From positions 6,947,962 to 7,011,961 of the forward strand of contig OZ024933.1 in NCBI GenBank assembly GCA_964017235.1: a DNA stretch of 64,000 nucleotides. The letters run 5' to 3'. Shown here in pieces: positions 44,253 through 61,685 of the stretch. Source of the DNA: Sabellastarte sp. h YS-2021 (taxonomy: Eukaryota; Annelida; Polychaeta; Sabellida; Sabellidae). The notes below the pieces were generated by a model. The model worked only from the letters and a program-made list of their open reading frames with translations. It made no database searches and was not told the origin of the DNA. The translations under genes were made by a program, and so were the position numbers. Position 1 is the first letter of the stretch. The number at the start of each line of letters is the position of its first letter.

Positions 44253-44476
44253 TGATTGTCATTTATAGGACTGCTGGCCCTTGGCTGGTCGCGAGGAGTA
44301 ATGTGAACCTTTCCCTCGACTTCTCTTTTGTCCTTTGCCAATATTCTTCCAAGATGGCCTGTCATTCTTGAAGGAAGAAGATTTCCTGTCACCCTTCCTC
44401 TCCGGTCTCTCATAGGGATGGAACCGACCCTTTCCTTTTGCACCTGAGGACTGACCCTTGTTTTCAAACTGTACAA
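41951..44476 (-). pseudogene. DIRS reverse transcriptase-RNase H, with an in-frame stop
   Basis: The RT blocks are FLVPKPNNKWRPILDLSKLN, WVTSIDLRDAYFHIPI, FGLSTAPLEFT and HQYLDDWLVRAS (YLDD). RNase H follows with LFTDASKEGWGAHL and VATDNTTVVAYI. A TGA at 42593-42595 interrupts the frame just before a conserved His-Ile-Pro-Gly segment. The same frame then continues (DKLSRLGQ, VDLFATRFN, VDALSMPWEDLDAYAFPP) to 41951, as in other DIRS pol proteins. No methyltransferase domain was noticed. The start codon is uncertain because of overlap with gag. Confidence 0.88.
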
Positions 44477-46407
44477 TCTCCTCTTCGGCCTTCTTAATCA
44501 GACTGTCCGGAAAGAGAGTAGAGATGTGGATGGGAGCAGTGCGTAAGCCCGCCATAGTGTCTGGTTTAACTCCAGTCCTGACGTGGGTAAGATATGCATC
44601 TCTACGAGCCAAGGTAAGGTTCCCCATGGAAATAAAAACAAATTCTGTGAGGTGTTCCATCGATTTGGCTGCTGCCTGGCAGATGCTAGAGTTAAAGTTC
44701 ATGAGGTGTTGCATTTCGTCCAGAGCAGTTGATACCTTAGCCGAGCCCTTACCCTTGCTTTCAGAGCGTACAGTTTTGAATTGTTCCTGCATATTCTGTT
44801 GCACCTTGAACAGGCACCTGTTAAAACTAGCAGCCTGGTTACAGATGATGGTAGCTTCTCGTGCCGACTTCTCCCAGCGTCTGAGTGTCTCTTGAGAGAT
44901 ACGCCTGGAAGTGGGATGTGAAGTGGAGAGACCAGACTGTCTAGCGATCCGGCTGTAGGAACTGTTCAATTTGCAAGCGTCTGTATACCAGGACGAGACT
45001 GCTATGGGGTCAGCTTTGTGGTCGGATGACAGCCCGTACCACTTGGCCTGTGACTTTGCAGGTCTCAAGAACTGGTCCATCATCAAGCCACCGGCTTCTG
45101 AACTTCGGGAGGGGTAACCCTCAACCAGAGTAACGTTCAATTTACTGAGCTTCTTGCATAGCCACTCTTCTGTGGGCACGTGGACTGAGACCTTTCCTGG
45201 GGTGGAAGACTTGGGTCCTGAGAAGGGGTTGTCATCAGATCCTGTAGTTGCACTGTCTAATTCAGGGATATTCGACCAGCCCATATAGGAGCGGATACCG
45301 CTCATGGTTTCTCTATAGGTCTGTTCTTCACTGATTGTCTGGTCGGGTTCGATAGTCGTGCAGTCCGGATCCTCTGATAATTCACCCTCCTCTGCGTATA
45401 AGTCTACAGGCGGTTGGTCAGAGTAGTCAGAAGCTGAGGCTGAGCTGTCACTAGAGGAGCTATCCCGGCGTTGTCGGTGCAATGGTGGAGAGCCGGAGTC
45501 GGTGGCCAGAGTGGATTTAGGCCGGTCAGAACGGGCCTTAGAAGAAGGGTCGGTACCAGTGTAAGTAACCGGGCGGTGCCGGTCAGAAGAAGGCTGGCTG
45601 GCAGGTCGGTGCTCAGAAGCAGCAGATTCTTTGCCAGTGCGCCCAGATGAAGAGGGTCGGACCGACTTCTGGTCGGTGACAAGCTGGCTGGATGACAGAT
45701 GCTGAGAAGCAGAGATGTCTTTCCCAGTGCGCTTTGAAGATGTAGTTGTCGTCTCCGAACCGGGCTGGCTGGCTGACTGATGTACAAGTACAGAGGAGTC
45801 TGTGCCAGTGCGCCCTGAAGAAACAGGCTGAAAGAAGGGTTCGGAGTCTCTGGTGACAGTGGCTGGTGGAGTGTGAAGGGGGGACTTTGACAGCAGCTGA
45901 GAAAGTCGGCTGATCCACAGGTTGGAGAGACTTAGCCAAGAGAAGAGCCTCCAGTTTGTTAAAACGGTCCGTCCATTTTTTATCAAGTTCATCAAACTTA
46001 GCGTCTTCAACCGCTTTGGTAGGTTTCTTAGCTTTAGAAGAAGATGATGAGGAGGGCTTATCTTTCTTGCTTTTCTTCTCAGGTACTGCAGGGGAGGAAG
46101 AGGTAGTAGGTTCTACGGGACCCAAAACTGCCACTGAAGAAGGGTCAACTAACGTAGAGTCTTTACTGGGAGTAGAATCCATTTTCTTTGCCTCTCGTTT
46201 TTCTTTCTTAAGTCTATAAGAAGGCGTAGAAAGTTGCTGCACTTGTTCAGGGGTGAGAATGTTACAAAAATTACACTCACTCTCTGGATTCTTAATACAT
46301 GGATCCTCTCCCTTCTTTTTATCCCTGCAGCGTGCGCAGAAGGCATGCCCATCAAAGGAGGCCATAGCATGGCCACAACTCCCCCTTTTTTGACCAGGTG
46401 AAGACAT
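44259..46407 (-). pseudogene. DIRS gag-like protein, frameshifted
   Basis: The N-terminal frame (46407 down to about 45880) begins MSSPGQKRGSCGHAMASFDG and has paired Cys motifs (CARCRDK, CNFCNILTPEQVQQL) typical of DIRS gag. The rest lies in another frame (about 45880 to 44259) with Ser/Thr-rich repeats, then LDEMQHLMNFNSSICQA and a basic C-terminus rich in KGK/RS. The switch occurs at or near a run of six G at 45878-45883 (plus strand), suggesting a replication-slippage indel. Confidence 0.82.
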
Positions 46408-46531
46408 AACGAAGTCTATACACTCTCCACTACTTATAAAACAATATATTTAAGGGAAAAAACGAAAACCCTGGCATTAATAATACAAAATCTTGAGAGC
46501 AGAAATTTCCGTGTGAACACACCACGCGCCA

Positions 46532-46704
46532 AACGAAAAAGATGCCATGACGTCATTCTGTCTAGACAGGAAGCAATACCTATGCGCCACCTGGCGAGTG
46601 CACACCAGGGCCGGCCGGCCAGTATGCATGCATATAGAATGACTTTTTCTGTCGTTTGGCGGGCCGGTCCGCGCCGACCGGATAAGCTATTGTCCATTGG
46701 ATAG
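46532..46704 (-). repeat. DIRS inverted terminal repeat, 5' side of element
   Basis: Inverted partner of 40349-40521. The last ~20 bp outside it (to 46724) are represented in the internal complementary region. Confidence 0.93.
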
Positions 46705-46899
46705 GATGTATTAACGCAATAAAAATAATATTTAGACGTGAAAAGGGCTCGTAACTTAAACGTTAAAACTCGCGAATCATCAAGACGTAAGGCTACTTAT
46801 AAAACACTTAATTGACCGGTACTTACAAAACAAAAGGAGAAACCATTGGCTAAATTGCAGAATTCCCCTCCCGGATATAGCTGAAAGTAGTTCCGTCAT

Positions 46900-47410
46900 A
46901 TATCTATATATATATATATCTAGATAAATATATATATATGCAAAAAAAATAAATAAAATGAAATAAAATAATACAAATTAACAAATATGTAGATTAGTAA
47001 GTAGACGTGAAAGCAGGTAGACAGGTAGACAGGTCGGCTGGTAGACAGGTCGGCGGGTTGGCAGGTAGACAGGTCGGCAGGTAGACAGATATTATAAAAA
47101 GTATAAAAGAAAATAATAAAAATAATTGACAAAAAATAATTTTATATTTGGAGATTATAAAATAAAGGAACAATGTAACATAGTTTCTGATTGGTTAATC
47201 AGACAAAAAAAAACATGCATTACAGTGTCATAAAGGTGTGGATATTTGTTCTGGTGACCTGCCGACCCGCCGACCTGCCGACCCGCCGACCTGCCGACCA
47301 GCCGACCTGCCTACCAGCCGACCTGCCTACCAGCCAACCTGTCTACCTGCCTACATGTCTACCTGCCTACATGTCTACCTGCCTACATGTCTACCTGTCC
47401 ACTTATCTTA
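46900..47410. repeat. Minisatellite present in two inverted arms
   Basis: The left arm (about 47010-47095) is made of 'gtagacaggtcggc' units. The right arm (about 47256-47405) is made of complementary 'gccgacctgcctacc' units. An A/T-rich spacer of about 160 bp lies between, and an alternating TA tract sits at 46903-46937. Together they could form a large cruciform. The frames in it are artefacts of the repeat. Confidence 0.8.
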
Positions 47411-47512
47411 TTTTCCATTTAATCAGGAACTATATTATTGCAGAAAATAACTTCACTTATATTCCTACGCCTTTCTACTACTACTATAGGGTCTGTATAG
47501 GGTGCAGATCAA

Positions 47513-48552
47513 TATTTGAGGGGGGGTAAAATGGGGGTGAATTTATAGGTTGCAGATCAATGGGGGAGGGGGGATTTGCGGGTTGAAGTGTGGTGACACG
47601 TGTATTGGTTTATGGGATTAAGGGGTTTTATAATTTATAGGTTGCAGGTAAATGGGGAGGGGGTTTTTTGGGGGGAAGCAAGTGTGGTGGCATGTGTATT
47701 TTGACTGAGGGATTGAGGAGAAGGAAATTGTGAGACTGAGGACATGCTCCCCCCTCCCACAATGGTGCGGAGCACCATTGGGGGTTTGAACTTTGTTGTG
47801 CCTTTTATTTGAAATTATCCCTGTGTATTTTTTTCTGGTTAAAATCTATTTCCAAAGCATATTGTGAATCCTTGTTTTCACTGCTTTTAAATCATTTTAT
47901 CGCTTTAACCATAAAACATCAGAATATTTTTATGAAAACCAAGATATTCTTTTTTTTAATTATTTGTCCAATTTATAACCTTTTTCTTTCTTGAGTCATT
48001 TCATAATTATCAGAATAAGTTATAAAATTCTAATTATTCTTTTTTCAACTGATTCAACCAAATAACTTTTTTTTCCTGAGAAAAAAAAACAGCACATCCT
48101 TACTGGTTGAGTTCCAAGCATGAAATGAAACATCAGACTGGCTTATTGACAGAAATTATTATGAGCCCACCCAATTGATTAACACCCTCACTTATTGATC
48201 TGCAACCTATAAATTTCCACCAGAATCTCAACACCTGTGTCCTCTTTAGTTTTGAATTTCAAAAGCCTCTCACATTAATTGAGGTTTGATCAAGAAAGGG
48301 GTGGGGGGATTTAATATGAGAGGATTATTGAGCATTTAACTCAGATAAAAGACACACTTGTTTAACTTACTGTGTGCTTTGTTTACAGCTAAGGGATCTT
48401 TTTACTGTATTTGAGGAGGGGGTAAAATAGGGGTGAATTTATAGGTTGCAGATCAATGGGGGAGGGGGGATTTGCGGGTTGAAGCATGGTGACACGTGTA
48501 TTGGTTTATGGGATTAAGGGGTTTTATAATTTATAGGTTGCAGATTAATGGG
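47513..48552. repeat. Two ~140-bp direct repeats bracketing 0.75 kb
   Basis: 47513-47655 and 48411-48552 are nearly identical ('ggggtgaatttataggttgc', 'gatttgcgggttgaag', 'gacacgtgtattggtttatg'). Short inverted pieces ('gcaacctataaatt') occur at about 48190 and 48642. They lie just outside the first gene of the Polinton, so they may be part of its left end or of an older repeat there. A perfect 9-bp-stem palindrome sits at 47760-47780. Confidence 0.7.
47800..48400. other. AT-rich, no gene
   Basis: Only short frames, no motifs; lies between the direct repeats. Confidence 0.5.
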
Positions 48553-48700
48553 TCACAGATGTATTGGTTTTTATCTGTGTTGTTGAGGGTTTAAAATTTA
48601 CAGGTTGCAGGAATTGAATTAGTCATTGATTTATTAATGAGCAACCTATAAATTCTAATATTTTACTGGTTGAATCAAATTTAGGTATCGATTTTGCCAG

Positions 48701-48708
48701 TATATAAG
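48701..48708 (+). promoter_or_regulatory. TATA box of the 279-residue orphan gene
   Basis: TATATAAG lies 65 bp ahead of the ATG at 48766. It is the only TATA box of this element on the plus strand. Confidence 0.7.
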
Positions 48709-48765
48709 ATGCCGTTTTGCTTTGGGGAAAGCCAAACATTTTTCTGATCTTCATAGATAGACACT

Positions 48766-49605
48766 ATGGAGAAAAAACAACTTCAGTGTATTTTGGAAGA
48801 CAGTAAATTCGATGGCGGAAAATATTTAAGAATTAAAAAAGGGAGTAGATTCATTTGTCTCCCTATGAAAGCAATAAACATTTTGATTGAAAATATATCC
48901 CAGATAAGTGAAGCTGTGAAGAATGGTTTGCCATACTCAATCAAACTAAGTGACGCAATCGATGTGGAGGTTACTCTGTTCAAAGGAATTGCTTACGTTG
49001 TTTTCAAGAAAGGAACTTTTTACATAAATGCTGCATTTGAGGAATGGCGTATCGTCGAAGAATCTATTCCAGATAGTTTTTTCCCCAGGGTTTGCGGATT
49101 TGTCTATACTCCAAAAGATGCGAGGGTAGAAATCTTCCAAGTCATTTGTGATGGGGCTTTTCCAAAGTCTTTTTACACAGAGGAGGGTGCCAAGTCTTAC
49201 GCGAGTTCCTTGCCAGGTGTCTGTACAGTAGTTAAGAAAACAGTGACTGCTCCGGATGGAATTTCAATGGTTCACAATGCAAAAGCGTACCTGATGCGTA
49301 ATAAACTGAAAAACCTACTGAAAGAAGTCTGCTACGGGTGCCAATACGATCGCCCCAGTCAAATCGAACACTCCTGCTTGGAATCGTTGGAAGACTCTGT
49401 GGATAAGTATTACGGGAAGTTTGAAATTGGCTCCGATGAGTTGAAAGACTTTTTAAATAAAGTGATGGATAAATTGCAGATGTCGCCATTCAGGGGGTTC
49501 ATATTGGATCATAAACCGGATGAGGGAAAAGTTCTTGCAGCTCTAAAGGAAGACAATATACCAGAAATCTGGACAGAGTTATTTAACGAAATTTGTTTTG
49601 CATAA
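48766..49605 (+). CDS. Polinton orphan protein with CCHC motif
   Basis: The 279-residue protein has no function I can name. Its central C-terminal half carries CYGCQYDRPSQIEHSC (residues 189-204), a CX2CX9HXC arrangement able to bind zinc. I have the impression that similar 'GC..D.PSQ..H.C' segments occur in other proteins of invertebrate virus-like elements, but this is recollection, not a search. No signal peptide or membrane segment. It is transcribed opposite to all other genes of the element, from its own TATA box. An AATAAA at 49686-49691 lies 80 bp after the stop. It converges with the 67-residue gene at 49816. Possible roles are early/regulatory or DNA-binding; this is an inference from position only. 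Confidence 0.75.
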   Translation: MEKKQLQCILEDSKFDGGKYLRIKKGSRFICLPMKAINILIENISQISEAVKNGLPYSIKLSDAIDVEVTLFKGIAYVVFKKGTFYINAAFEEWRIVEESIPDSFFPRVCGFVYTPKDARVEIFQVICDGAFPKSFYTEEGAKSYASSLPGVCTVVKKTVTAPDGISMVHNAKAYLMRNKLKNLLKEVCYGCQYDRPSQIEHSCLESLEDSVDKYYGKFEIGSDELKDFLNKVMDKLQMSPFRGFILDHKPDEGKVLAALKEDNIPEIWTELFNEICFA

Positions 49606-49685
49606 AAGCGATATGTAAATTGGAATTTGTACTGGTAATTGTGAAAAATGGTGGTAAAAGTTATTATTATTATTTGTGTAATGAA

Positions 49686-49691
49686 AATAAA
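49686..49691 (+). terminator. Polyadenylation signal AATAAA
   Basis: Canonical hexamer 80 bp downstream of the stop of the plus-strand orphan gene; a second AATAAA follows about 15 bp later. Confidence 0.6.
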
Positions 49692-49764
49692 TCAGATATA
49701 GAAATAAAAAGCCTTTTTTTTCATTCAAAATCTAGACTTTCCTGGTCCCCGGTAGTTTAAACTA

Positions 49765-49822
49765 CCTATTATTCACTCAGCGGTGAGGGTTTCATGAAGG
49801 GAGTCCAACCTTCACTCATTGT
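49765..49822 (-). other. Conserved two-hairpin 3' element, copy 1
   Basis: On the minus strand it starts ACAATGAG, forms a GAAGG/CCTTC hairpin, continues TGAAACCC, forms a CTCA/TGAG hairpin and ends ATAATAGG. The same order with different but complementary stem bases is found at 56168-56226. It overlaps the stop codon of the 67-residue gene. Confidence 0.6.
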
Positions 49823-50019
49823 CGCCAGGATACTATACTCCGTCCATCTTGTAGCACTGTAATGTTGACTAATTTTTCTCCAAATTTAGCCTGACCAAAA
49901 CTTAAACCAGCACTGGCACACTCTTCTATGGAGTTGTAGCTTCTCTTGCTTGGTAAATGGTTTATATGTTCGATGACGAATGTATACTTCTCACATTTGT
50001 CCTTTGTTTGACTATCCAT
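49816..50019 (-). CDS. Small protein of unknown function (67 aa)
   Basis: The frame starts MDSQTKDKCEKYTFV and ends VSWRQ. I recognise no domain, signal peptide or membrane segment. Support for it being real comes from context: a TATA box 58-65 bp upstream (50077-50084), the same spacing as at other genes of the element, and a conserved 3' hairpin element overlapping its stop. It is the last minus-strand gene before the convergent plus-strand orphan. Confidence 0.55.
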   Translation of the reverse strand: MDSQTKDKCEKYTFVIEHINHLPSKRSYNSIEECASAGLSFGQAKFGEKLVNITVLQDGRSIVSWRQ

Positions 50020-50076
50020 TTTTTTCAGTTTTTTTATTTTATAATTTTTTTATGCTTCACCATGGGTTTTAAGCAG

Positions 50077-50084
50077 CCTTTATA
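50077..50084 (-). promoter_or_regulatory. TATA box fused to the TBP-like gene's stop codon
   Basis: TATAAAGG whose TAA is the stop codon (50080-50082) of the upstream TBP-like gene. It lies 58-65 bp ahead of the 67-residue gene. Confidence 0.7.
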
Positions 50085-50574
50085 AAATCTCCAGCTCTAA
50101 CAATGTCGGGTTCACAATATCGTCTATAACACGCTCACTCGTAATGCCAGTTATGACTACCTTACCAGTCCTATAAACTGTAAAGTGTACTCTTTTTCTT
50201 TTTATATTCAGAGCGTGATATATCTCTGGTTCGTATGTGGCCCCTGGCAGTTTCATCATTTTAAAGTAATTTACTTCATTGGTCAAATTGTAGACTGCTG
50301 AATGTGTCGCTATCTTCACTTTGTTTAATGATACAGGATAACCCATTTTAAACAGTATTCTGGCATATTTTCGGATCTGTTTCTTATTCCCATGGCAAAT
50401 CATTTTTCCAGTACTATACAACATACAACTACACCTAATTTTTTTGTGATGCCAATTAATGACATCGAATGGTTTTGTTTTGTACACAACATCTCCACTA
50501 TTTACAGCAATATGTCTCAGATCTAGTGGGCAACCTAGGTCTCCATAAATCACTGTATGAGTTATGCTCGCCAT
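50080..50574 (-). CDS. TATA-box-binding-protein (TBP) homologue encoded by the Polinton
   Basis: The 164-residue protein matches the two-repeat saddle of TBP along its length. It has LDLRHIAVNSGDVVY (residues 17-31), Y-STGKM-ICHG (53-62), IRKYARILFKMGYPV (67-81), then in the second half TYEPEIYHAL (113-122) and Y-RTGKVVITG (134-143). These align in order with TBP segments of the type SGKM, RKYARxxxKxGFP, YEPELFPGL and SGKxxxTG. At three of the four positions where cellular TBP inserts DNA-kinking Phe residues, this protein has Tyr (53, 119, 134). TBP binds the minor groove of TATA boxes and recruits TFIIB and polymerase. The natural N-terminal extension is absent and the length is close to the ~180-residue core. 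The gene has its own TATA box at 50616-50623 and sits between an LRR membrane protein and a small orphan. Similarity is by eye, not by search. Confidence 0.82.
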   Translation of the reverse strand: MASITHTVIYGDLGCPLDLRHIAVNSGDVVYKTKPFDVINWHHKKIRCSCMLYSTGKMICHGNKKQIRKYARILFKMGYPVSLNKVKIATHSAVYNLTNEVNYFKMMKLPGATYEPEIYHALNIKRKRVHFTVYRTGKVVITGITSERVIDDIVNPTLLELEIL

Positions 50575-50615
50575 GGCAGCTTGTGTCTAAATGAATGTTA
50601 ATCGTTCACTACAAG

Positions 50616-50623
50616 TCTTTATA
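50616..50623 (-). promoter_or_regulatory. TATA box of the TBP-like gene
   Basis: TATAAAGA lies 42-49 bp ahead of the ATG at 50574 and 13 bp beyond the stop of the upstream LRR gene. Confidence 0.7.
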
Positions 50624-50635
50624 ACCCATCATACT

Positions 50636-51175
50636 TCACACAGGAAAAATCGATCGTTCCTCGGCTCCATTAAAACTAGATTTTTTATTCGCTTCCTTAA
50701 TGCGTATATTTCTTTTACTTTTTATTATGCAAGCGCATGCGGAAACAAAAGTAAACCCAAAGGGGATAAATATTATAGCGTATATCAGTTTGAATAATTC
50801 TACGTGTTCTGGCATAAAATAATCTGCATCTATACCATAGTACACAGTATTGGGTATGGTATGACAATCTGTGTCCACATAGACGTTTTTATTTTCGATA
50901 CTAAAATTGCAATCTAATTTACTATTTTCCCTGAGAGTAACCCATTCTAAACTTGGCCATTCTTTTAGCGAAGGCATTTCAGTGATATTTGTCGAAAGAA
51001 TGTCCAAAAATAGCGCGTCATTTTTAACTTCATCGGAAAATGTCGGTATTTGATTAATATTCATCCCAGCACATAAAATTATGCCCAAATCCAACTGACA
51101 TAGACACACCGGAGGCGTACCACAGGGTTCGGCTAGAGCTGTACCGAGTACACATATAATGACAAAGATCAACAT
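50636..51175 (-). CDS. LRR-like type I membrane protein
   Basis: A 179-residue protein. Residues 1-15 form a signal peptide (cleavage likely after ALA). A Cys cluster (C18, C24, C26, C35) followed by INQIPTF, FLDILSTNITEMPSL and SLEWVTL (about 40-80) resembles an LRR N-terminal cap with one or two leucine-rich repeats. C89 and C104 could pair in a C-terminal cap. A hydrophobic segment at about 127-151 is the membrane anchor, followed by a short basic cytosolic tail. Such a protein would sit at the cell surface or on an envelope. A role in host binding or in mimicking an LRR receptor is an inference. The TATA box at 51210-51217 overlaps the end of the major capsid gene. Confidence 0.7.
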   Translation of the reverse strand: MLIFVIICVLGTALAEPCGTPPVCLCQLDLGIILCAGMNINQIPTFSDEVKNDALFLDILSTNITEMPSLKEWPSLEWVTLRENSKLDCNFSIENKNVYVDTDCHTIPNTVYYGIDADYFMPEHVELFKLIYAIIFIPFGFTFVSACACIIKSKRNIRIKEANKKSSFNGAEERSIFPV

Positions 51176-51205
51176 TTTGTTTTGTTATTTTTTGGTCAAA
51201 CTAGT

Positions 51206-52480
51206 CTAGCTTTTATAATCTAATATCACATTTCTACTGGCATTAATGGTTGCCATTGCCGGAAATTTTGCATATACTATTGCTGTGACATTCTCTTGCA
51301 ATGGCTTGGCAAATTTGACTTTGACCCTAACATTACCGTGTTTTTCTCTAGAATACAGATCGCCACCAGTTTGGCTTTGCAAGTTAAAAAGAAACAGACA
51401 GTACCCACTCGGAAAATCTTTCATGGAAATGATACAAGACTTTTTATATCAACCACCGAATAAGTTCAAATAGGAACTAGTATACTCCCCTTCTTGAAAA
51501 TTTGGCTGAAGGGCCTCCGACGGAGCTGACATTCCATCAATAGTAACTTCTAAGAAATTAATGTGGTAATGTTGGAAATTAAATGGGTTTTTATTGTAAT
51601 TACCATTAAAAGCTTCAGTGCTGCAGAGCGCCAATACAATAACATTTGGCACACTACCGCGATACACATCCTCAACACACCAATCATAATTGCCTTTTGA
51701 TACGCTGTAGGTTTTAATATCCGACCGCCAAAAAGGGTACAAAGCTGGTTGCGTCTTCAGGATTTCATTCTGAGCAATGAGAACTTCTGGCTTAACCTTA
51801 ACTCTACACACTTTAAGAACCGCATCCTCAATATGAAGCTTGTATTCCTTATTTCCATCAGCTGTTAACCGGAAGCAGTTTTCGTTTTGAATCATCTTTA
51901 TGCGTATCGCAACTCCATTCACAATTAGTCTGTCTTGTTGGCAAATGTCCACTCTTATACCTCCTTCTAAGGTTAGTATCTGACTTTGGTTTGTGTGTAA
52001 CATTCTGTTGTAATGGCCCAAATTGCCTCCGTTGAGTCCGGCTTCATCCATTGCACCAGCAGTATCTTTGTAAAATAATTCGCTTTGGAGTCTCGATGCG
52101 CATTCATCATCTGTACTGTTCAGTAGTACATCTATGTAAGCTTTGTAAGGGTGATTCGATCCAACGCTAGTCGTTATCAATTTCTGATTCAAAGATACAT
52201 CCATCTGGGAAAAGAGAGAGCTCAGCCCTAAATTAACTAGCGCTACTTGATCATCCTCAGTTAGATCGCTCCCATCCTTATGAGTTACTCTCACTTTAAC
52301 TTGTAGCAAAGTTTTCCGGAGGTCTGTGTAGATAGTGGCATTACTAGGTATATCAAAAGATAAAGGAGAATCTTTCTTGGGAATAACATCTGGTGCAAAA
52401 TGCACCCAATCAATGCTTTCAACTGCAGTCTCTACCAGAGGCTTCTCGAAAAGAGCTAGATTAGAACAATGCACATCCAT
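51206..52480 (-). pseudogene. Polinton major capsid protein (double jelly-roll), one nonsense codon
   Basis: The first 343 codons (52480-51449) have the features of the animal Polinton capsid family that gene catalogues label 'F54H12.2-like': IPSNATIYTDLRKTLLQVK, LGLSSLFSQMDVSLNQKL and ELFYKDTAGAMDEA. A TGA at 51449-51451 ends the frame. The same frame then remains open to the TAG at 51206, and this tail (VRVKVKFAKPLQEN, then IVYAKF) is the family's usual C-terminus. So the gene is broken by a single in-frame stop and otherwise intact. The start ATG overlaps the upstream gene's stop as TAATG. A TATA-like TATAAAAA directly follows the TGA (51441-51448) but lies too close to the next ATG to serve it. 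Alternatives to true inactivation are a sequencing error or stop readthrough. Confidence 0.88.
51210..51217 (-). promoter_or_regulatory. TATA box inside the last codons of the major capsid gene
   Basis: TATAAAAG is read as the final Tyr-Lys-Ser codons of the capsid frame, directly followed by its TAG stop (51206-51208). It lies 35-42 bp ahead of the LRR gene's ATG. Confidence 0.75.
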
Positions 52481-52758
52481 TATGAAAAAAAATCTGGTTT
52501 TCTTCCTTTCTTCAGAGCAAAGGAGGCCTTCTTTTTCTTCTGTGTAGGTTTTCTTTTACTATTTTTCCTATTCAGTTTCCTTTTAACTGTGGCCTTTTTT
52601 CTAACAGCCTTTCGCCTTTTTTGTCCAGTCCGCCTTTTTACTGCTTTTATAACTTTCACCTGGTCTTTTGCCATTTCTACAGCCTGTTCGGTAGGGGCCA
52701 CCATTTTTAGAGTATAATACTTCCTTCTCTTTGAAACCTTACCTTCGGACATGTTCAT
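52480..52758 (-). CDS. Small very basic protein, core/DNA-packaging-like
   Basis: I take the ATG at 52758, which overlaps the minor capsid stop as ATGA, giving about 92 residues. An in-frame ATG further upstream at 52833 would overlap the minor capsid gene by 79 bp. The protein is dominated by Lys/Arg clusters (KRRTGQKRRKAVRKK, RKNSKRKPTQKKKK). Its composition and its place between the two capsid genes suggest a histone/protamine-like core protein that condenses the genome in the particle. No specific family is claimed. The stop overlaps the capsid start (TAATG). Confidence 0.7.
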   Translation of the reverse strand: MNMSEGKVSKRRKYYTLKMVAPTEQAVEMAKDQVKVIKAVKRRTGQKRRKAVRKKATVKRKLNRKNSKRKPTQKKKKASFALKKGRKPDFFS

Positions 52759-53150
52759 GAAATGTTGTTTCCAGCCCGTCTCAGACATAAAGTACAGTAA
52801 AAGTCTTGAACTACTTGCTCTTTCATAAAACAATCCTTCAAGTATATTCTAATAGTGGAAAACTCTAGTTTAGCCACCTTTATAAAGTTAGGATGGGATA
52901 AAGTGTCAACTTTTGTATCTAGCCTCCTTAAAACTGGTGATAAAGCCCCAAATACATAACTTTCCTCACAAATATCGCTAAATACGTATATCGGATCCTT
53001 ACTAGAAGTTTTAATTCTATGTTCTGTCAGGGCCACCTCCCAGCATCCTTCTAATGAGACCGGTTTCGGAAGATTAATAATAAAATTATTTGGTTTATTC
53101 TGACTATTTAAATGGACAGAGTCACGCCAATTGAGATAATAGTAAGTCAT
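52755..53150 (-). CDS. Polinton minor capsid protein (penton-type single jelly-roll)
   Basis: The 131-residue protein has the family pattern: NNFIINLPKPVSLEGCWEVA near the N-terminus, then DPIYVFSDICEESYVFG, FSTIRIYLKD and FYCTLCLRR as successive strands. Minor capsid (penton) proteins occupy the vertices of the icosahedral particle. It begins three bases after the integrase stop (TGA AAG ATG), without an obvious TATA box, consistent with translation from the same mRNA. Confidence 0.82.
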   Translation of the reverse strand: MTYYYLNWRDSVHLNSQNKPNNFIINLPKPVSLEGCWEVALTEHRIKTSSKDPIYVFSDICEESYVFGALSPVLRRLDTKVDTLSHPNFIKVAKLEFSTIRIYLKDCFMKEQVVQDFYCTLCLRRAGNNIS

Positions 53151-53153
53151 CTT

Positions 53154-54269
53154 TCATATGTTTTCTATATCGCTAGCTTTGACCCAAGAATCAAACTTTT
53201 TGGGCCAGTGTAACCACCTCACGAGATATTCTTTAGGTTTGCCTTTGGGCCTTTTAGTTCTTAGAATTTTCTCAATCTTCCACAACTTGTCTTCTTTCAG
53301 GGAAACCTTTTGCAGCTCCGAGTGGTAAAAACTTCCTTTTATATCTTCGGACAGGAAGTCAACTAGTTTGTATATGGGAATACCGTCCCTCCTAGCTCTC
53401 TTACTTATCTTGAATATTTCCGAAGACCATTTTTGGTGAAATTCCTTAGTAAAGGGGTTTTTGAGGTCAGTAATTCTTACCGTGTCACCCGCTTTAAATT
53501 TAAACCTGGTAGACTTTGGCTCAGATATTTTATGAGGTTTTACATTTTTAGTCTTTGGCCAATACATGTACCACCAAAGACCTCTTTCGTTCGATTTATT
53601 AACTTCGCTTGGGGCCATACAAATTGTGCTGTGAAAACTTTGGTTGTAGCTGGAAACTAGATCTGGTAACTTTTCGATATACCTTTCTTTTTGAGTGTGA
53701 CTTAGGTAGCGGTAGATCGAGTTTTTTAGTGTTCTGATACACCTCTCAGCATAATTAGCCTTTCCTTCATTTTGAGTGACAAAATGGTGTATACCTAGAT
53801 CTTTAAACAGTTTTAAAAGCTGTCCTTTAAATTCTGAGCCTTTGTCCGAGCGGGCCAGTTTTGGCCGTCTGCCTTCAGCGAATATACTTTTGAATGCTTT
53901 TACTACTTCGGACACTGTTTTGTTCTTTAGAGGACGCACAAAAATGTATTTTGAAAATATATCAATGACTAACAGCAGATACTTTACACCGTCATTCTTT
54001 TTGGCCAATGCAGACACATCCATCAAATCAAAGTCCCACTGATCATCGATGCCATTAACTACGACCCTGTTTCTTGCAAATTTTCTACGCAAAGGTCTAT
54101 GTATACTGTAGACTTCTTGATTTTGTAGCCATTTTCGAATGCGATTTAAACTTATGTTAAACCTCCCTTCATTTTTTACTTCTTGAAATAGTTTGTTGGG
54201 TCCGGCAAAACTGGCTGGGTGGGCGGGGTCGTAATAAATGGTTGACAAGTATTCTTCCCACTCAGTCAT
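53154..54269 (-). CDS. Polinton integrase (rve fold) with C-terminal chromodomain
   Basis: The 371-residue protein has a helical N-terminal region and then the retroviral integrase catalytic core: QWDFDLMDV (catalytic Asp about residue 81), ARSDKGSEFKG (Asp 142) and KANYAERCIRT (Glu 175), a DDE triad. An SH3-like region follows (FKAGDTVRITDL). The last ~43 residues form a chromodomain (LWKIEKILRTKRP, EYLVRWLHWPKKFDSW, with the aromatic cage residues). It would insert the viral DNA into host chromosomes, the chromodomain guiding it to modified histones. The start overlaps the preceding stop as ATGA (54266-54269). Confidence 0.95.
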   Translation of the reverse strand: MTEWEEYLSTIYYDPAHPASFAGPNKLFQEVKNEGRFNISLNRIRKWLQNQEVYSIHRPLRRKFARNRVVVNGIDDQWDFDLMDVSALAKKNDGVKYLLLVIDIFSKYIFVRPLKNKTVSEVVKAFKSIFAEGRRPKLARSDKGSEFKGQLLKLFKDLGIHHFVTQNEGKANYAERCIRTLKNSIYRYLSHTQKERYIEKLPDLVSSYNQSFHSTICMAPSEVNKSNERGLWWYMYWPKTKNVKPHKISEPKSTRFKFKAGDTVRITDLKNPFTKEFHQKWSSEIFKISKRARRDGIPIYKLVDFLSEDIKGSFYHSELQKVSLKEDKLWKIEKILRTKRPKGKPKEYLVRWLHWPKKFDSWVKASDIENI

Positions 54270-54649
54270 AATTTCAACCAGTCTTTTGTTGTATTAATAG
54301 GTAAATTTGTCTTTTGCTGCTGAATTAATCCTTTAGGCGCATTGAGCTCTTTCAAGAAGTCTTGAAATATTTCATAGTCTTTTGGTGGATATTTTCCATA
54401 TTCCCTCACACTATATCGTACTAAATCGGCAATATGAGTTTCTGGGTAAATTTCACCCCGAATCACCATTTCACCTTTATCGGTCCACGAAATACTATCC
54501 TTTATATATTCCAATATCATTTTTGCCTTACTTCTAAATTTCTTTGGAATAGTCTGAATTATCATGTCATCATTTATTTGTTTTGTTTGCCCGGCATTAC
54601 AGTTTTCTGGCGTATAGGGTACCAACACCATTTTGTTTACCGAATTCAT
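54266..54649 (-). CDS. Conserved Polinton protein of unknown function (127 aa)
   Basis: The protein contains KKFRSKAKMILEYIKDS, ISWTDKGEMVIRGEIYPETH and IADLVRYSVREYG. In my recollection, a pattern of short helices around W-x-x-x-G-E-x-x-x-x-G and D-L-V recurs in small Polinton proteins next to the integrase and capsid genes. No enzymatic motif is visible. It overlaps its neighbours by 4 bp on both sides (ATGA at 54646-54649 and 54266-54269). Confidence 0.65.
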   Translation of the reverse strand: MNSVNKMVLVPYTPENCNAGQTKQINDDMIIQTIPKKFRSKAKMILEYIKDSISWTDKGEMVIRGEIYPETHIADLVRYSVREYGKYPPKDYEIFQDFLKELNAPKGLIQQQKTNLPINTTKDWLKL

Positions 54650-54942
54650 AGTCTTATTATGACTGATTTGGCGGATGAAAGCAATAACTTGATTGAATTG
54701 CTATTTCGTCCCAATTTACACCTGCTAATTCTATTGGCAACCAACTCCCTGTAAAAAACTTTGTAGCGTCTTAATTTGTTTTTCAGTGCCTTGTCCACTG
54801 GTACATTACCCTGTAACAAATTTGTTGTGACCTCTCTTAGACCCAAAACCTGTGCTTTAGACGCGTGCTGCAACAAAAACTTACGCTGTTTCTTATTGGC
54901 CTCGCTCAGAAAAAGTAGGAAATATTTACTCTTCTCAGCCAT
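54646..54942 (-). CDS. Conserved small helical Polinton protein (98 aa)
   Basis: A basic, helical protein (NKKQRKFLLQHASKAQVLGL, EVTTNLLQGNVPVDKALKNK). Small proteins of this pattern commonly accompany Polinton capsid genes; the function is not known to me. It is the first gene after the TATA box at 54971-54978 and thus heads the six-gene chain that ends with the major capsid gene. Its TGA overlaps the next ATG. Confidence 0.65.
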   Translation of the reverse strand: MAEKSKYFLLFLSEANKKQRKFLLQHASKAQVLGLREVTTNLLQGNVPVDKALKNKLRRYKVFYRELVANRISRCKLGRNSNSIKLLLSSAKSVIIRL

Positions 54943-54970
54943 TATTATTATAAGCTAGTGGAGGTTACCC

Positions 54971-54978
54971 CTTTTATA
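54971..54978 (-). promoter_or_regulatory. TATA box fused to the ATPase stop codon
   Basis: TATAAAAG whose TAA is the stop (54974-54976) of the packaging ATPase. It lies 29-36 bp ahead of the 98-residue gene and is the only clear promoter of the six-gene block 54942-51206. Confidence 0.78.
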
Positions 54979-55621
54979 AATTCTTTGGGATATACACCCA
55001 AGGATCTTCCCCTGGGAATATTCTACTTCTCATTCGATAGGTATTATCTCCGTGTGCTGTAAGATCTAAAACTAGGTATCCATAAGCTTGTTTTGTAGCA
55101 TCTTTATACGATTCGACCAATGCCATACCATTACCCGGGAAAAGTTGCTTACCAAGTGACACTATCTGTTGTCCGTCTCTCATATTTCGAAACAAAATTA
55201 AATAATGCGTATTTAGTGCAATTGTTCTGGCACACTTTCCCTGCTGAAAACAGTTGTGAGTCAAAAATAAGACGCTCAATTTTAAATGATGTGCCCCTTG
55301 GGTAAACAGTCTCTGCATTTCTACGTCTTTCACTACCGAATCCATTAAGTCGTCCAAAACTATGGCACAGTGGTTATAACCTCTACTAAAACTTTCAAGA
55401 TTATCCGGTAAACCCTTATGAAATGTGATATTAGGAATTTGGTTTTTCATTTCATTAAAAAGCTCTTGCTCAGCCCCATAGCAGTAGAGAACCTTTTCCA
55501 CTGGAGAGGAAAACATGACGTCTTTGTTTTTAAGCAAGCGAAATACAAAAGTTGTTTTCCCAGATTTTGTGGCCCCAGCAATCGTAAAAGTAGAACAAGC
55601 CTCAAAAGGTAGTGGCACCAT
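54974..55621 (-). CDS. Genome-packaging ATPase (FtsK/HerA, A32-like)
   Basis: The 215-residue protein has Walker A GATKSGKT (residues 16-23), Walker B CAIVLDDLMD (85-94), the sensor-like LFLTHN (118-123) and an arginine-finger-type LFRNMRDGQ (143-151). Proteins of this family pump the viral genome into preformed capsids and are one of the Polinton hallmark genes. It is transcribed from its own TATA box at 55649-55656. The frame is intact and the length is usual for the family. Confidence 0.93.
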   Translation of the reverse strand: MVPLPFEACSTFTIAGATKSGKTTFVFRLLKNKDVMFSSPVEKVLYCYGAEQELFNEMKNQIPNITFHKGLPDNLESFSRGYNHCAIVLDDLMDSVVKDVEMQRLFTQGAHHLKLSVLFLTHNCFQQGKCARTIALNTHYLILFRNMRDGQQIVSLGKQLFPGNGMALVESYKDATKQAYGYLVLDLTAHGDNTYRMRSRIFPGEDPWVYIPKNL

Positions 55622-55648
55622 GGTTGTAAAGACATTACTTTTTAATTG

Positions 55649-55656
55649 CTTTTATA
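55649..55656 (-). promoter_or_regulatory. TATA box of the packaging ATPase
   Basis: TATAAAAG lies 28-35 bp ahead of the ATG at 55621, implying a very short 5' leader. Confidence 0.72.
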
Positions 55657-55659
55657 AAG

Positions 55660-56146
55660 AATTCGGGTTTTCCAGTCCCCTAGAGATACCAAAGTGGGGA
55701 ATAAATTCAATTTGTTGTACATTATTTTCACATGAACTAAAAACATCCAATGCAAATGGGTAGTTTGAGATGGAAAAAAGAGTGTTCAAGTGTCATGTAG
55801 GCACTATTTTATGGAAAATATGAAAATATGAAACTATATGGCAAAAGAAAGCAGCATTGAGAAATTGTTTTGCTTTTTAAACAGATAAAATGCATATTTT
55901 AAAAAAATAATTGGTGCAGAACTAATGCATGTAGTTTTGAACATGCCCCAAGTTTAAACATTCTTCAATAACTGGTATGCATATGACAAATATGTCAGAA
56001 TAATTAGCTTTAAATATTGATGCCCAAATTATTGGTAGAATTTACTTGCCATCTGCAAAAAAAAAATATGTGTAAATTGTTACAATAAGTGTTTCTGACA
56101 ACATTGGATATCTTGGTTCTTATGTAAATAATGACAATCAAAGGAA
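55660..56146. other. Spacer between ATPase promoter and polymerase 3' end
   Basis: AT-rich, no long frame. I looked here for the missing protease and found nothing. Confidence 0.55.
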
Positions 56147-56152
56147 TTTATT
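56147..56152 (-). terminator. Polyadenylation signal of the polymerase gene
   Basis: AATAAA on the minus strand, about 85 bp beyond the polymerase stop and just after the two-hairpin element. Confidence 0.6.
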
Positions 56153-56167
56153 CACTACAATGTTATC

Positions 56168-56226
56168 CCTATATTATCCGCTCTAAAGGCGGGGGTTTCA
56201 TCGAGGGACCCACCTCTACTCATTGT
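56168..56226 (-). other. Conserved two-hairpin 3' element, copy 2
   Basis: On the minus strand: ACAATGAG, hairpin GAGG/CCTC, ATGAAACCC, hairpin CCGC/GCGG, then ATAATATAGG. It lies 11 bp after the polymerase stop. Stem bases differ from copy 1 (49765-49822) in a compensating way, while the single-stranded parts agree. Confidence 0.6.
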
Positions 56227-56236
56227 AGCTGGAAGT

Positions 56237-59200
56237 TTAGTAGCCATAAGGTCTGGTGTCAAAATTTTCACTCAGCGCTCTTTTGGTATATACAACCCTG
56301 TACTTTTTTCTGACATCTTTATTGTAGATTTTTTGCTTAAGTAAATCTCTTCTGATTTGATTAGGATACAATGCACATGTATTCGTGGTGCCGCCATGCA
56401 AGTACCAGGCAAACACCTCTTCTTTCATCTTTTCAAAATTCAATTCTTTTGAAATTTCATGATTCAGGGTGAATCCCTTTATTGTGCACTTTGTTTCTCC
56501 ATTATCGAGTTTGAAGGAATAATTTTTTGGACCAGCTGAGAGGAATTCAACAATATGATGGCCTTGTAATTCATCGGTCAATTCACCCAAATAATCACCG
56601 GTTTTAATTGTGTCCTGGTTTTCATCTGTTTTATATATGACCGAATCCGTATCAAAATATAATACCGACTGACCCAAATGCTGCAAGACATCGTAGAGCC
56701 TCAATCTGGCATGGGCAGTGGTGAAAGATGCAAGAATTACATTCGTTTGCATGTTTGTTGGCACAAATTCTTCCACATTCTCGAACTCTAACTGCACCAT
56801 GTCATCATTCAAAATGTGCCAGTCAGCAATTTTTAGGGTAGGGTTTGCCAGCTTGTGGAAAAATTCTGCTTCATCGGTGGTGATCACAATTTTTTTCATG
56901 TTTGATCTCTGCGCTAGCTTTCCCCAAAAACTGAAAACAAAAAAAACAAAAAAAAAAAATTACGACTAAAAGAAAATAACTGACCATTAGGAGTATTACT
57001 ATTACTAAATATGCGTACTTTAATGGTATAGCAATTAAATCATTACCTGTTGAGGCATAATTTGGCGAGGGATCTCAGGCCTGGATTTTTCTCCACCAGA
57101 TGACCCTCTAGCTCAACCCCTTCTTTTTCTTTGTAGTTGGCGAGATATTGGGCTTGTTTCGCCTCATCTCCCTGACACCACTCTGGCCACCCTGAAGCCA
57201 TCTGTTTGATTTTCAGGAACTGGTTCACGTATCCAGAGAAGAGACCAGAAGAACCAGTGCTTGGGTCAAACTTTGAAGTATTCTCCCAGTGGTATACTTC
57301 GTATATTTTTACAATTTGGTACCCCATTTCAAGCGCTTTAACCAGTTCAATGGTTGTCCAGGTTCCTAGAATCATCCTCTTTTCTGGGTGGCATTGACAA
57401 GGCTGTTGGTTTTGTTCATCGGCACAAGTTTTACACAGGGGAAACAGGAGCTTTCCATTGTTGCGATATGGCAGCACCGGGTGATACAATGATCTGGGAG
57501 GTAGCACTTTGACCTTAGCCAGCCCAAAGTACTCTGCTATACCCCGAAAATTCTCCAGGATGACTTCTGGATGCCCGATTGGGTACTCATCGTACTTGTT
57601 CACTGTTGGGTACAGAGAAGTGAAATCAACATACTTGATTTTTTCTCCAGGTCCAACTTTGTGATACAGCTTCACTGCATTTGTGCGTCCACCAAAAAAT
57701 GTGTCCCTGGGTTCTAACCTGGTTTGAACATCCAGTTCTATGGCAAAGGCAATCAAGGCTGGGTTTGTTTTAAGTGCCATGTTAAAGTCATGCTCCCACA
57801 TACACACATATTCGTACCCCATTGAGATTAAGTCAGCTTTTTTCTGCAGTGTCATAGCATATCTCTGACTGAAAGTTTGGTTAAAATGAGGGTGAACAAT
57901 ATCTGCGTTGTAGCACCTAGGACAACCATGGAAGAAACACCCATTAAACTCCATCACAGTTTTTTGCCCGGTACTAGGATCTTCGAAATACCCATCTACT
58001 TTATAAATACCCCCATCTGGTTTCCTAATTTTAAATTCACCACCATTTAAAGCATGCCTGATAGCTACACCCCTCTGCCGACTCTCCCACTCTAACCACT
58101 GGATTGAAGTCTTGCTAATGTTATCGCAAACCCCGTACCCACCAGCCGGTATCACCCCTATATCTGACCCTTTAAACGTTGTGTTTTCAACATCAGAATT
58201 CTCTACTACGCACCAATCAGACCCCTTCTTAACTCTGATTTTGTCATTAAGTCTCTTAGCCTCCCTAACTGTTGTCTCGCCTTTAAGTTTCACTTCGAGA
58301 GTTTCCTCTAAATGTAGGCTTCTGTATACACCCATACACACGGATGCTATGGTGCAAAATGAAAATGGGTCAACACCATTTTTGATTGAATGGACAAGAG
58401 CATTTGTTTCTGGGTCAAGTTTGGTTTCAGCGGTACCCGTTATGGACAATAAAAGATGCCTGAATTTCATACAGGCTCTGCGCAAAATGTCAACATCCGA
58501 CACGCAATATTCTTTTATTTCCTTTTGAAAGTCAAAAGCCCCCTCCAAATTTGAATACCATTCGAGAAAATTGTTTCTGTCTTTCTCACTCATTCCTTGA
58601 ATCCCATACATTTCTGGGGAAGGATATTGCCCGACATAGTTTTGATTTTCCAGAGTATTAAAATAGTGTGGAAAATAACCTTTTTTCAATTCAGTTAAGC
58701 CAAAAGCTTTTGGGAGACAAGACAGACGCATCGGCATAAAGTTCAATGAATCCAACACTCGTATATCGAGGCCCCTCTCGATGTGCATATACATAATTTT
58801 TGATCCATTAAAGATCACTTTTGGAGTAATGCTATTTTCTGTGAGATATGACAACAAAAAGTACCCATCGTATCCCCTAGCATTGTGGGCCAGAACAGTA
58901 GATCCCTTTCTTTGCTTTTGAAAAAGCCACTTTCCCACAAGATGAGAAGTATTTTCCCCTTTAAATACAATTTGTCTTTTACCACAACCGTTACAGGCTT
59001 TCTTGGCAAATTCCCCGCTTTTAGAGTCCCACTTATCGCATTTGAGACACCGATCTCCGCAGGATTGACATACCGAATCATCGGTCAGATCTTGATTTTC
59101 ACACACCTGACATACTGTCTGAATGACTGCAAAGTTTGGGACATGAACCCCCGTATTTTGGATGCACTCAAAATCTAAAAATACGAACTTATTTTTCTGT

Positions 59201-61685
59201 GGCTTTGGAGGTAGAGCTGGTAGGTGACAAAAGTGATTGCCCATAAAATTTTGAAGGCAGAATTTACACTTCCACTCACCGCAAATATGGGCTTCCTTCG
59301 TGTCTTTTGTCAAATCGATGACTTTTTTACAAATCTTGCACACCCATCTGGTATTGCAAGGCGAAGGAATTACTTTATGCAGAGATTTTTTCTTCTCTTG
59401 TTTGTGTCGGACAAAACATTCTAACGAACGGCAAACGGATTGACAAGAACGACAAGTCATTGGTGTTGATTCTACACAAGATATAGATTGACAAGTCTGA
59501 CAAGTATGGGTACAATGGTGATTGCTAATGGAATTAAAACCCTGAAAACATTTTGAACAGAAGTAGGACATGGCAAGCATACCCTTAATGTTTACGATAC
59601 AATCAAAGTGACCGTTGTCCCCAGACCTGGTATAATACAGGTAAACCCGCTTATCACCAACTGGTCGCGAAGTATCCGGGTACATGACTTTGTTGTTTAA
59701 ATGGGCCGTAAAAACAACAACATGAATGTTTAATACTTGTTCAAACATGGGTATATCTAAAATACTACAGGGCCTATTCGTAGGTACCCCAGCAAGATTG
59801 TGATAACGCAAGGCAGTTTTTTTCTGTAGACTATTTCTATTTCTGTCCCCCTTTCTCATGTTATTATAATGCTTAAGCATCGAAGGCCTATCTTTTTCAG
59901 AAGCTCCTTGTAAAAGATTAAAGGCGATACCAACGGCTATGGACCTAGCTAAGCACAAGTAATCTTCATTATTGATTGACACCAATGACCGCTTCGAAAT
60001 CCTATTAGAAGAAACATTTGTGATTGGTACACCTTTACCCCCATGCATCATTTTGGCAACCCCCAAGTTAACTTCAAACCCCTCTGCTACATTAAGATTT
60101 TCTTTGCTTTGAAGCACATTTTGTACTGCATCCATAACAGCTTCTGGGTTCAGTTTTTCCAGGGGTTGAGGAGGTACTATTATTGGTTTATGCAGATCTG
60201 GATGGTTGATGTGTACCCTGCCCACTGCCTCTTCTTTGGCAAAGTCCTGCATCCCCTGCTCGAGTAAATCTTTGAATGCCTGGTGCAGTTCCACTTTCAA
60301 GTCTTTAATTTCTTTCCCTTGGTGCGTATCGTCAAACTTAACTTGGTAGCTAACCTCTTTGACAACGCCTCCTATAATGAACAAATACCGGTCTAACCAT
60401 TAAAATTTAGAATAACTGGGGACTTCACCATTATCAGTAATTTGTTTCTTAACTTTTTTTTTGTTTCTTATTTTTTAAGTTTTCCATTTCAATCCCAAAG
60501 TATATTTATCAAAAAAAACTTCTATCAAGCCAACATTAGCCATCCCGGTATTGTTTACAAAAATATATGGAGCTCAAAGATATTCTGTACTCACCTTTGA
60601 AACTCTTGCTGTCCCTGCAGGATATGCTGTAACTCTTTTCCTCATCTTGCTCGATGTCGTATCCATCTTGATCCTGATCCGGCCTCATCCTTTTTGCTGG
60701 GGGTTGTTCTACCAGATCAGATAGTCCAGATGGTCCCGCTTCTCCTATTAATGGGATTCCATTTATGGTTTCGGGTTCATCTACAATATAAATCCATTAT
60801 TCTTACACACCCAAAGATTTAAAATCATTTTTTCAGTGGCTTAATCTGACACACTAATCTTTTACTCCATCATGAGGTGAGTTCGAACCCACAACCTCAG
60901 GCATGGGAGATCAGCAATTCAAAATCAAGTTTGTTAATCAGAGAGCCTGCATGTAATACGCATAAAGTTTATACTTTTCAAAAATAACAAGAGAAAATGA
61001 ATTCTATTTTAACAGATAACCATTTTAAAACTAACCACTATAGAAAAGGTTTTCATCGAATGTGTCTACAGCATGTTTCAGATCTTCCAAATTGGGAATG
61101 TTTCCATTCTCAAAATCAGCCACAAAGCAATTGTCTGGGGTTGCTGAAAAAACATAATTAGGAACACTTTAATGATGGTAAATGTGTTTGAGGTTATATT
61201 TTATGAAAATAAAACATTCTTTTTTTTTACAATACAGTAAAAGCTCTATTATCCGAATTTCAATTATCCAGCCTCAAACTCACTCTCCAAAATCATTTTA
61301 AGCCTGTTATTTTAGCATTCCTATTATCCAACCTTTCTATTATTTGACCGTATTTGACCGTATTCTTACTCTCCCAAGAGTGTCAGATAATAGAGGTTCT
61401 ACTGCAGTAGTATGCTATACCATTTATGGGGTTTTGTTCCATATCTTCAACAGCTTCTATCAGTTGGAAGTTGCTATCATTCAGTTGAGAACCCTCCTCA
61501 GCCTGTGCCCCATCCAAAGCCTCCAGCAGAATGGGGTCACTCACAGCATCGAACCATGAATCTTCTTCCAAGGCGGTGATCCGTTGGACCACACTTGGAT
61601 CGAACTCTAGGCCAGCTGACACAGCCCATTGTCTCAACTCATCTCTTGAGGTAAATGAGTTTACTTTTTCTAAAAAGGAAGCCAT
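56237..61685 (-). CDS. Protein-primed-type DNA polymerase B, five coding exons
   Basis: Coding exons are 61685-61421, 61143-61036, 60780-60595, 60371-57047 and 56930-56237. All four introns are GT-AG, phases agree at every junction (1,1,1,2), and the total is divisible by three (about 1525 residues). Exons 1-3 are acidic and unrecognised. Exon 4 has an OTU/papain-like stretch (NNEDYLCLARSIAV, later GHFDCIV) and zinc-finger-like Cys/His pairs. It also has exonuclease motifs (FVFLDFECI, AHNARGYDGYF, YCVSDVDILR), a VSR-endonuclease-like insert (MEFNGCFFHGCPRC) and palm motif A (YVDFTSLYPTV). The next polymerase motif is split by the last intron. Exon 5 has motif C (LYFDTDSVIYK) and ends TRPYGY. 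It replicates the element's linear genome. No stop or frameshift is seen. Confidence 0.9.
60850..60960 (-). repeat. Possible SINE fragment in polymerase intron 2
   Basis: A B-box-like gggttcgaactc on the minus strand with a tRNA-like context ('gaggttgtgggttcg'). No tail or target duplication was found, so it is only a fragment or chance match. Confidence 0.3.

Follow-up and report, generated by a model that had tools for sequence, protein, structure and literature searches.

A Polinton in this genome carries a gene for a member of the TATA-binding protein (TBP) family. The reading that we favour, with a probability of about 0.6, is that it represents a lineage of Polintons whose TBP would bind the TATA promoters of the element, recruit the TFIIB and RNA polymerase II (Pol II) of the host, and drive the expression of the element's genes, an interpretation drawn from sequence comparisons. 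The gene lies in the window, by which we mean the whole 64-kb stretch of DNA that was analysed.

The TBP-family protein is encoded on the minus strand by an intron-free frame of 164 amino acids that runs from 50574 to 50080; read on the plus strand, the same interval (50080..50574) is interrupted by stop codons. The frame matches the Pfam family PF00352 with an E-value of 1.3e-19 (70.3 bits against a cut-off of 22.9), and the match falls into two stretches, in agreement with the original prediction, which had recognised both pseudo-repeats of TBP in a 164-residue frame at coordinates that are correct and by motifs (STGKM, RKYAR, YEPEIY and RTGKVVITG) that are all present. The core of human TBP matches the frame with an E-value of 6e-15, the TBP models of NCBIfam match it with E-values down to 3.2e-13 that lie under those models' own cut-offs, and one protein in the database (P0001) is 98% identical to it. 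The two-repeat saddle for which a structure prediction had been proposed is predicted by a model built from an alignment of 17 sequences, which has a mean pLDDT of 91.7 and for which the first row in the PDB is human TBP in its complex with TFIIB (1c9b_B, TM 0.88, 26% identity). All 44 PDB rows with E <= 0.001 are TBPs, or complexes or fusions with TBP, by their titles (in the case of 3eik, by the molecule name). The frame is a member of the TBP family.

The element that contains the gene is a Polinton, as had been claimed, with a DNA polymerase B (PolB) and an rve integrase with a chromodomain in the window, and with inverted repeats and 6-bp duplications in sister copies. The part of it that lies in the window extends from 47480 to 64000; its left boundary is the same in the window copy and in three sister copies, while its right end lies beyond the window, with the right terminal repeat found within the next 4 kb (L058). 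The left terminal inverted repeat occupies 47480..48660, an extent fixed by homology with the C1 copy. The inverted repeat measures 1184 nt at 99.5% identity in C1 and 913 nt at 99.9% in C5, and in the window copy there is an inverted match of 772 nt at 99.5% that is ended by the edge of the sequence compared; because these repeats are nearly identical, they suggest a recent insertion. Long terminal repeats and 6-bp target duplications are marks of Polintons, and the two complete sister copies, each read at both of its ends, measure 19450 and 20369 bp, start with ACTACTATAGGG and are surrounded by the duplications TTCAAC and GACATG. Within the terminal repeat (47496-48660) the sequence TATAGGTTGCAGATCAATGGGG recurs in direct and inverted orientation and could be a site for replication, packaging or the integrase. 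A tandem repeat of about 157 bp occupies 61863-63146, towards the right side of the Polinton, with eight copies here and a copy number that apparently varies between sister elements. A search of 46000-64000 against Rfam found nothing. The window also holds a DIRS-like retroelement on the minus strand at 41016-46407, which ends about 1 kb before the Polinton and has a reverse transcriptase match with an E-value of 6.6e-24 and weak RNase H and tyrosine-recombinase matches under the cut-offs, as well as remnants of retroelements, recognised by eye, at 33380-35841 and 3261-6270 (a Gypsy-like protease/reverse transcriptase frame and a LINE-like endonuclease/reverse transcriptase set).

The genes of the element other than o279 lie on the minus strand. 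Upstream of the TBP gene are o179 (50636..51175), a small protein of unknown function without a Pfam match, which by eye appears to have an N-terminal signal peptide, a cysteine-rich, LRR-like stretch and then a membrane segment; o343 (51449..52480), a candidate capsid-region protein; o117 (52480..52833), a basic protein; and o131 (52755..53150), of unknown function. The integrase follows at 53154..54269, with an rve core (PF00665, E 1.2e-9) and a chromodomain (PF00385, E 1.6e-7) that both score over their cut-offs, and beyond it are o127 (54266..54649) and o98 (54646..54942), both of unknown function, and an A32-like packaging ATPase (54974..55621), which has a weak match to PF04665 (E 0.0019, 18.1 bits, under the cut-off of 22.8). 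The homologue of o343, which has 343 amino acids in the window, has 424 in seven of the eight same-family copies that were fetched and 332 in the remaining one (L011); it has no match in Pfam and no clear match among PDB sequences, and no capsid gene of the window element was recognised by sequence. PolB is represented by a main frame at 57043..60384 (PF03175, of the DNA_pol_B_2 type, E 8.1e-37) and by a C-terminal frame at 56237..56899, probably a second exon, which matches the C-terminal half of the polymerase frame of a metagenomic contig described below (L031). The gap between the two frames is 143 nt in the window and about 145 to 240 nt in the sister copies in which both could be matched cleanly, and in L031 a single frame spans the place. 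A frameshift or other damage was considered and set aside, and the gap (56900-57042), which recurs in the sister copies of several families and is missing from L031, is read as a probable intron.

The gene recurs elsewhere in the genome. In its 1.79 Gb, 149 PF00352 matches were obtained from 150 scored sequences, out of 288 candidates, although many copies contribute two matches, one for each repeat, and a few rows correspond to exons of the host TBP or TLF. Twenty TBP loci of 10 kb were fetched, comprising eight of the window family, five of another common family and seven divergent ones; these loci were chosen by TBP score, which favours intact frames. The order of the matched genes is identical in all 20, and every one contains matches to both TBP and o279, while the integrase and o343 are each found in 19 (both are absent from L030), as is o179 (absent from L029). 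The identity of their TBPs to that of the window ranges from 49 to 99%. At one site, two copies of the same family lie in opposite orientation (L024, at G000:C7:34621400-34631399, and L004), with their TBP matches about 11 kb apart and, mid-way between them, two ATPase genes that are about 1 kb apart and face outward.

Relatives of the gene also occur outside this genome. A profile search of a protein database found 218 relatives of the TBP at E <= 0.001, of which 120 were listed, and a scan of genome contigs gave 19 loci, 18 of them archaeal by title and the other one L031 (CALIZB010000033.1), a Polinton-like metagenomic contig of 8883 bp that is filed under a Bacteroidia genome, probably through a binning error. 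In L031 the TBP gene lies 5' of the integrase, which is followed by frames resembling o131, o117 and o343, a 147-aa frame and PolB, so that the position of TBP in the gene order differs from that in elements of the window type. The 147-aa frame, for which the possibility of a cysteine protease was considered, finds no counterpart in the window by tblastn at E 0.01 and no identification in Pfam. Indirect evidence of linkage came from a comparison of 120 TBP proteins, of the 218 found, with 120 integrase proteins, of the 1950 found. Seven TBP/integrase pairs match in contig size and source, where controls with shifted lengths average 0.68 pairs and never exceed 5; on contigs over 3000 bases there are five pairs, where the controls average 0.12 and reach 1 at most, and only these five are therefore used. 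Scanning viral contigs with the window TBP and with A1, A4, P0012, A5 and A7 revealed no relative. The organisms named among the relatives of the integrase are Mytilus edulis, Pinctada imbricata, Ruditapes philippinarum and a Solemya velum gill symbiont.

The phylogeny that had been proposed was computed against eukaryotic and archaeal TBPs, and places the element TBPs in a clade of their own. Its rows are the window, eight loci of the same genome, L031, 116 of 125 database proteins (those left out being P0001 and eight proteins shorter than 155 aa), yeast, human and seven archaeal TBPs. In a quick tree of 135 rows, which drew a warning of some long branches, the 126 element-type TBPs form one clade with an SH-aLRT of 99 and a stem of 1.03 changes per column; a more careful tree of 43 rows, which include 34 of the element type, supports the clade at 100/100 with a stem of 1.26. 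Ten of the 126 rows were found directly inside Polintons (nine from this genome, and L031), and the remainder are called element-type by inference, because they fall in the same clade and because of the five linked pairs. A single origin of the element-type TBPs is suggested rather than proved by these trees, since the proteins were collected with a profile of the same group, there are only three eukaryotic rows, and the TBPs of giant viruses, mirusviruses and herpesviruses were left out. Descent from TBPL1 is neither rejected nor established (p-AU 0.40, with a human TBPL1 row included). The host genome contains TBP exons about 11 kb apart and one TLF-like exon; that the gene is the host TBP itself, or a retro-copy of it, is rejected in view of these host exons and of the separate clade of the element TBP.

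If the element TBP acts at promoters, then the element should offer it binding sites, and the expectation that TATA boxes which it could serve are present is supported by the distribution of TATAAAAG, which stands before element genes with a strong strand bias. Five boxes lie on the minus strand of the window element, at 51210..51217 (42 nt before o179), 52644..52651 (about 170 nt before o343), 53336..53343 (about 190 nt before o131), 54971..54978 (36 nt before o98) and 55649..55656 (35 nt before the ATPase), and none lies on the opposite strand (shuffles gave 0.75 and 0.55). Over the whole window there are 10 copies against 5.76 expected, a weak excess equalled by 4 of 100 shuffles, and the signal is for this reason located in the element and on its coding strand. 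In five family segments TATAAAAG occurs 30 times against 1.84 expected, with no copy on the opposite strand, and is second only to T-runs among coding-strand 8-mers with at least 8 copies. In the 5.5 kb before TBP in the 20 loci there are 92 coding-strand copies and two on the opposite strand (both in L011), in related rather than independent sequences, and the 10-kb loci as wholes hold a few more opposite-strand copies. The distance from the box to the gene that follows is 31-42 nt for the ATPase in eight of the nine rows shown (L029 has 82 nt), 36-40 nt for o98 in all nine rows, and 40-42 nt for o179 in all six; in further loci it is 41 nt (L024) or 23 nt (L030) for o179, and L026 has no box there. 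TBP and o279 have boxes of a different kind, TATAAAGA (50616..50623, minus strand) upstream of the TBP start codon and TATATAAG (48701..48708, plus strand) upstream of o279; across the elements, the pattern TATAWAW is found upstream of TBP in two of 10 rows and upstream of o279 in four of eight, and TATAAAAG upstream of TBP in none of 10.

Several observations count against our preferred reading. L031, which has a TBP gene, lacks TATAAAAG on the coding strand, and the 5.5 kb tested holds two copies each in L025 and L030. In other families some copies fall inside the TBP gene or at its end, where no recognised gene follows on that strand. The TBP gene itself is preceded by TATAWAW in only two of 10 rows. 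Moreover, TATAAAAG is a canonical box that is also read by host TBP, and the boxes alone therefore do not require an element TBP.

The residues of the protein that would contact DNA and TFIIB were read in the 126 rows using the numbering of yeast TBP, in which we take F99, F116, F190 and F207 to be the positions that kink the DNA, E186 and E188 to be contacts of TFIIB, and N69, T124, N159 and T215 to be the central quartet of DNA contacts. The kink residues of the window TBP are F36, Y53, Y119 and Y134, so that it lacks the four phenylalanines of canonical cellular TBP and has tyrosine at three of these positions, as the original prediction had said. Its suggestion that the changes from phenylalanine to tyrosine tune the recognised site is not supported, since the pattern FYYY is found in only eight of the 126 rows (FFFF in 55, FFHF in 26) and the boxes of these elements are the canonical TATAAAAG. 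Position F99 is phenylalanine in 123 rows and F116 is phenylalanine or tyrosine in all 126, while F190 is more variable (F in 72, H in 26, Y in 12), as is F207 (F in 99, Y in 21). The acidic TFIIB-side residues are preserved, with E in 106 rows and D in 11 at E186, and E in 119 and D in seven at E188. The quartet is N-T-N-T in yeast TBP and N-T-N-S in that of P. woesei. N-T-N-T is kept in one of the 126 rows, N159 is replaced by T in 122, and N-N-T-T occurs in 67 and H-H-T-T in 14, the latter including all nine rows from this genome and among them the window; H at position 69 is accompanied by H at 124 in all 16 rows that have it, which are related. The changes from phenylalanine to tyrosine are lineage-specific, and the widely shared change is that of the central Asn/Thr contacts, which differ from those of cellular TBP (compared in full for yeast and P. 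woesei, and over the part covered for human). The element TBPs are thus like cellular TBP and TLF/TBPL1 in their two-repeat saddle, YEPE stirrup, kink aromatics and RKYAR helix, and unlike them in forming a separate clade on a stem of 1.03-1.26 and in having the N-T-N-T quartet replaced.

The changed central contacts could mean that TATA binding has been altered or lost, which also counts against our preferred reading. The likeliest of the alternatives is that the protein competes with host TBP, tying up TFIIB or the regulators of TBP and lowering host transcription, and does not drive the genes of the element. The combination of preserved acidic residues on the TFIIB side with changed DNA-contact residues speaks for such a competitor. 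The near-invariance of F99 and the universal presence of an aromatic residue at F116 suggest, however, that bending of DNA is still selected, and the strand-biased TATA boxes provide the protein with an obvious target; we consider this alternative unlikely.

A somewhat less likely alternative again is that the protein has no role at promoters and serves to bend DNA when the element is replicated, packaged or integrated, the terminal repeats being one possible site. The gene convergent with TBP, o279 (48766..49605, plus strand), has a predicted fold in residues 3-109 that resembles the PUR, Whirly and PC4 folds, which bind single strands, and such a neighbour would suit a protein of this kind, as would the repeated motifs within the terminal repeat. 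(An assignment of o279 to the PC4 family of Pfam was rejected, as there is no match; the likeness is at the level of the fold, and the closest rows are PUR-alpha rather than PC4.) A general bender of DNA, however, would have no need of the residues on the TFIIB side, and these are conserved.

In our preferred reading, a TBP of eukaryotic type would have been acquired anciently by a lineage of Polintons, and would now bind the TATA-type core promoters of the element and recruit host TFIIB and Pol II to them. The polymerase is assumed to be that of the host because no RNA polymerase was recognised among the genes of the element. Since the acidic TFIIB-side positions and the aromatic kink residues are kept and the boxes are strand-biased, the formation of initiation complexes is the simplest reading, and these complexes would drive the genes for packaging and those of the capsid region. 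Perhaps at an earlier stage host TBP would transcribe TBP and o279 from their weaker boxes, an order of early and late expression that we infer.

Viral TBPs provide a point of comparison. According to the accessible part of the source, ORF24 of KSHV replaces TBP at late promoters (PMC7498053), and it and the other vTBPs of beta- and gamma-herpesviruses are, like the putative factor described here, viral mimics of TBP that direct host Pol II to distinct viral promoters. They are a working precedent. They differ in that ORF24 has an N-terminal domain that binds Pol II and a central TBP-like domain, whereas the element TBP has 164 amino acids, and in that ORF24 acts on late promoters of TATT type in concert with other viral proteins, of which six are required in total, whereas the boxes of the element are TATAAAAG (PMC7498053). 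Mirusviruses, of whose genomes 59% encode TBP (PMC10132985, from a partial text), megavirus chilensis and CpV-BQ1, whose authors propose that its TBP and TFIIBs redirect the host polymerase (PMC12085832, likewise in part), resemble the element as eukaryotic DNA viruses that encode a TBP and differ from it in their far larger genomes. TBP genes also occur sporadically in endogenous elements of Cymbomonas of putative mirusvirus origin (PMC10675990, in the portion available), which likewise are endogenous viral elements with a TBP gene.

The presence of TBP homologues in large DNA viruses raises the further alternative that the TBP serves the transcription of another virus, in the manner of a virophage, so that the genes of the element would fire only in co-infection. 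The structural matches of the model argue against this: the first-ranked viral match in BFVD has a TM of 0.73 at 16% identity, and the highest TM among the rows shown is 0.77, both weaker than human TBP (0.88, 26%), and the best matches are cellular TBPs. We know of no helper for these elements, and regard this alternative as very improbable. The least credible alternative, that a captured or host TBP copy is hitch-hiking without function, could appeal to the host TBP exons in the same genome and to a further locus in which the TBP frame is broken (L010), but merits almost no credence in view of the low Ka/Ks between families, the full-length 164-aa frames in all 20 of the 10-kb loci (which were picked by TBP score), the single long-stemmed clade and the lack of introns in the frame. 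Ka/Ks is 0.13-0.23 for the six diverged pairs between families with finite Ks, and 0.19-0.86 for six close pairs with few changes. Synonymous changes are lacking in one pair, and Ks is saturated in another. These values support the conclusion that the element TBP is under purifying selection.

Polintons (Mavericks) and adintoviruses, the latter defined by a PolB with an OTU-like N-terminus and a recognisable hexon (PMC11071296, in the part available), share with the present element PolB, an rve integrase with a chromodomain, long terminal repeats and 6-bp duplications, and differ from it in that no TBP gene was found described for them in the literature searched. By title and the start of the abstract, no report of a TBP in a Polinton was found in that literature, and the novelty of the finding is provisional because the founding adintovirus paper and subscription papers were outside the scope of the search. 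Papers that contain both "polinton" and "TBP" concern, in their accessible portions, giant-virus TBP, the TBP of CpV-BQ1 or host TBP, and a search for TATA-type terms found nothing relevant in the available text of PMC11071308, PMC4028283, PMC10120064, PMC11071296, PMC12220804 and PMC4642659.

The occurrence of the same gene in close and distant relatives suggests that the elements govern the expression of their genes themselves. A bolder proposal, which we hold tentatively and at rather less than even odds, is that Polintons from animals and from the environment form an ancient, widely distributed lineage with a private initiation module, consisting of a TBP with a rewired quartet and a PUR/PC4-like partner that binds single strands. 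This module would recognise the TATA boxes of the element, would provide it with a temporal programme like that of a virus, run on host Pol II, and would have arisen independently of the herpesvirus vTBPs. To our knowledge, the control by Polintons of their own genes has been little studied. The retention of TBP throughout the lineage points to initiation that is controlled by the element on host Pol II, for which a concrete protein and concrete promoters are now available to test, and a separate, long-stemmed branch of TBPs in which the DNA-contact surface has changed in a pattern is useful for the study of how the specificity of TBP evolves.
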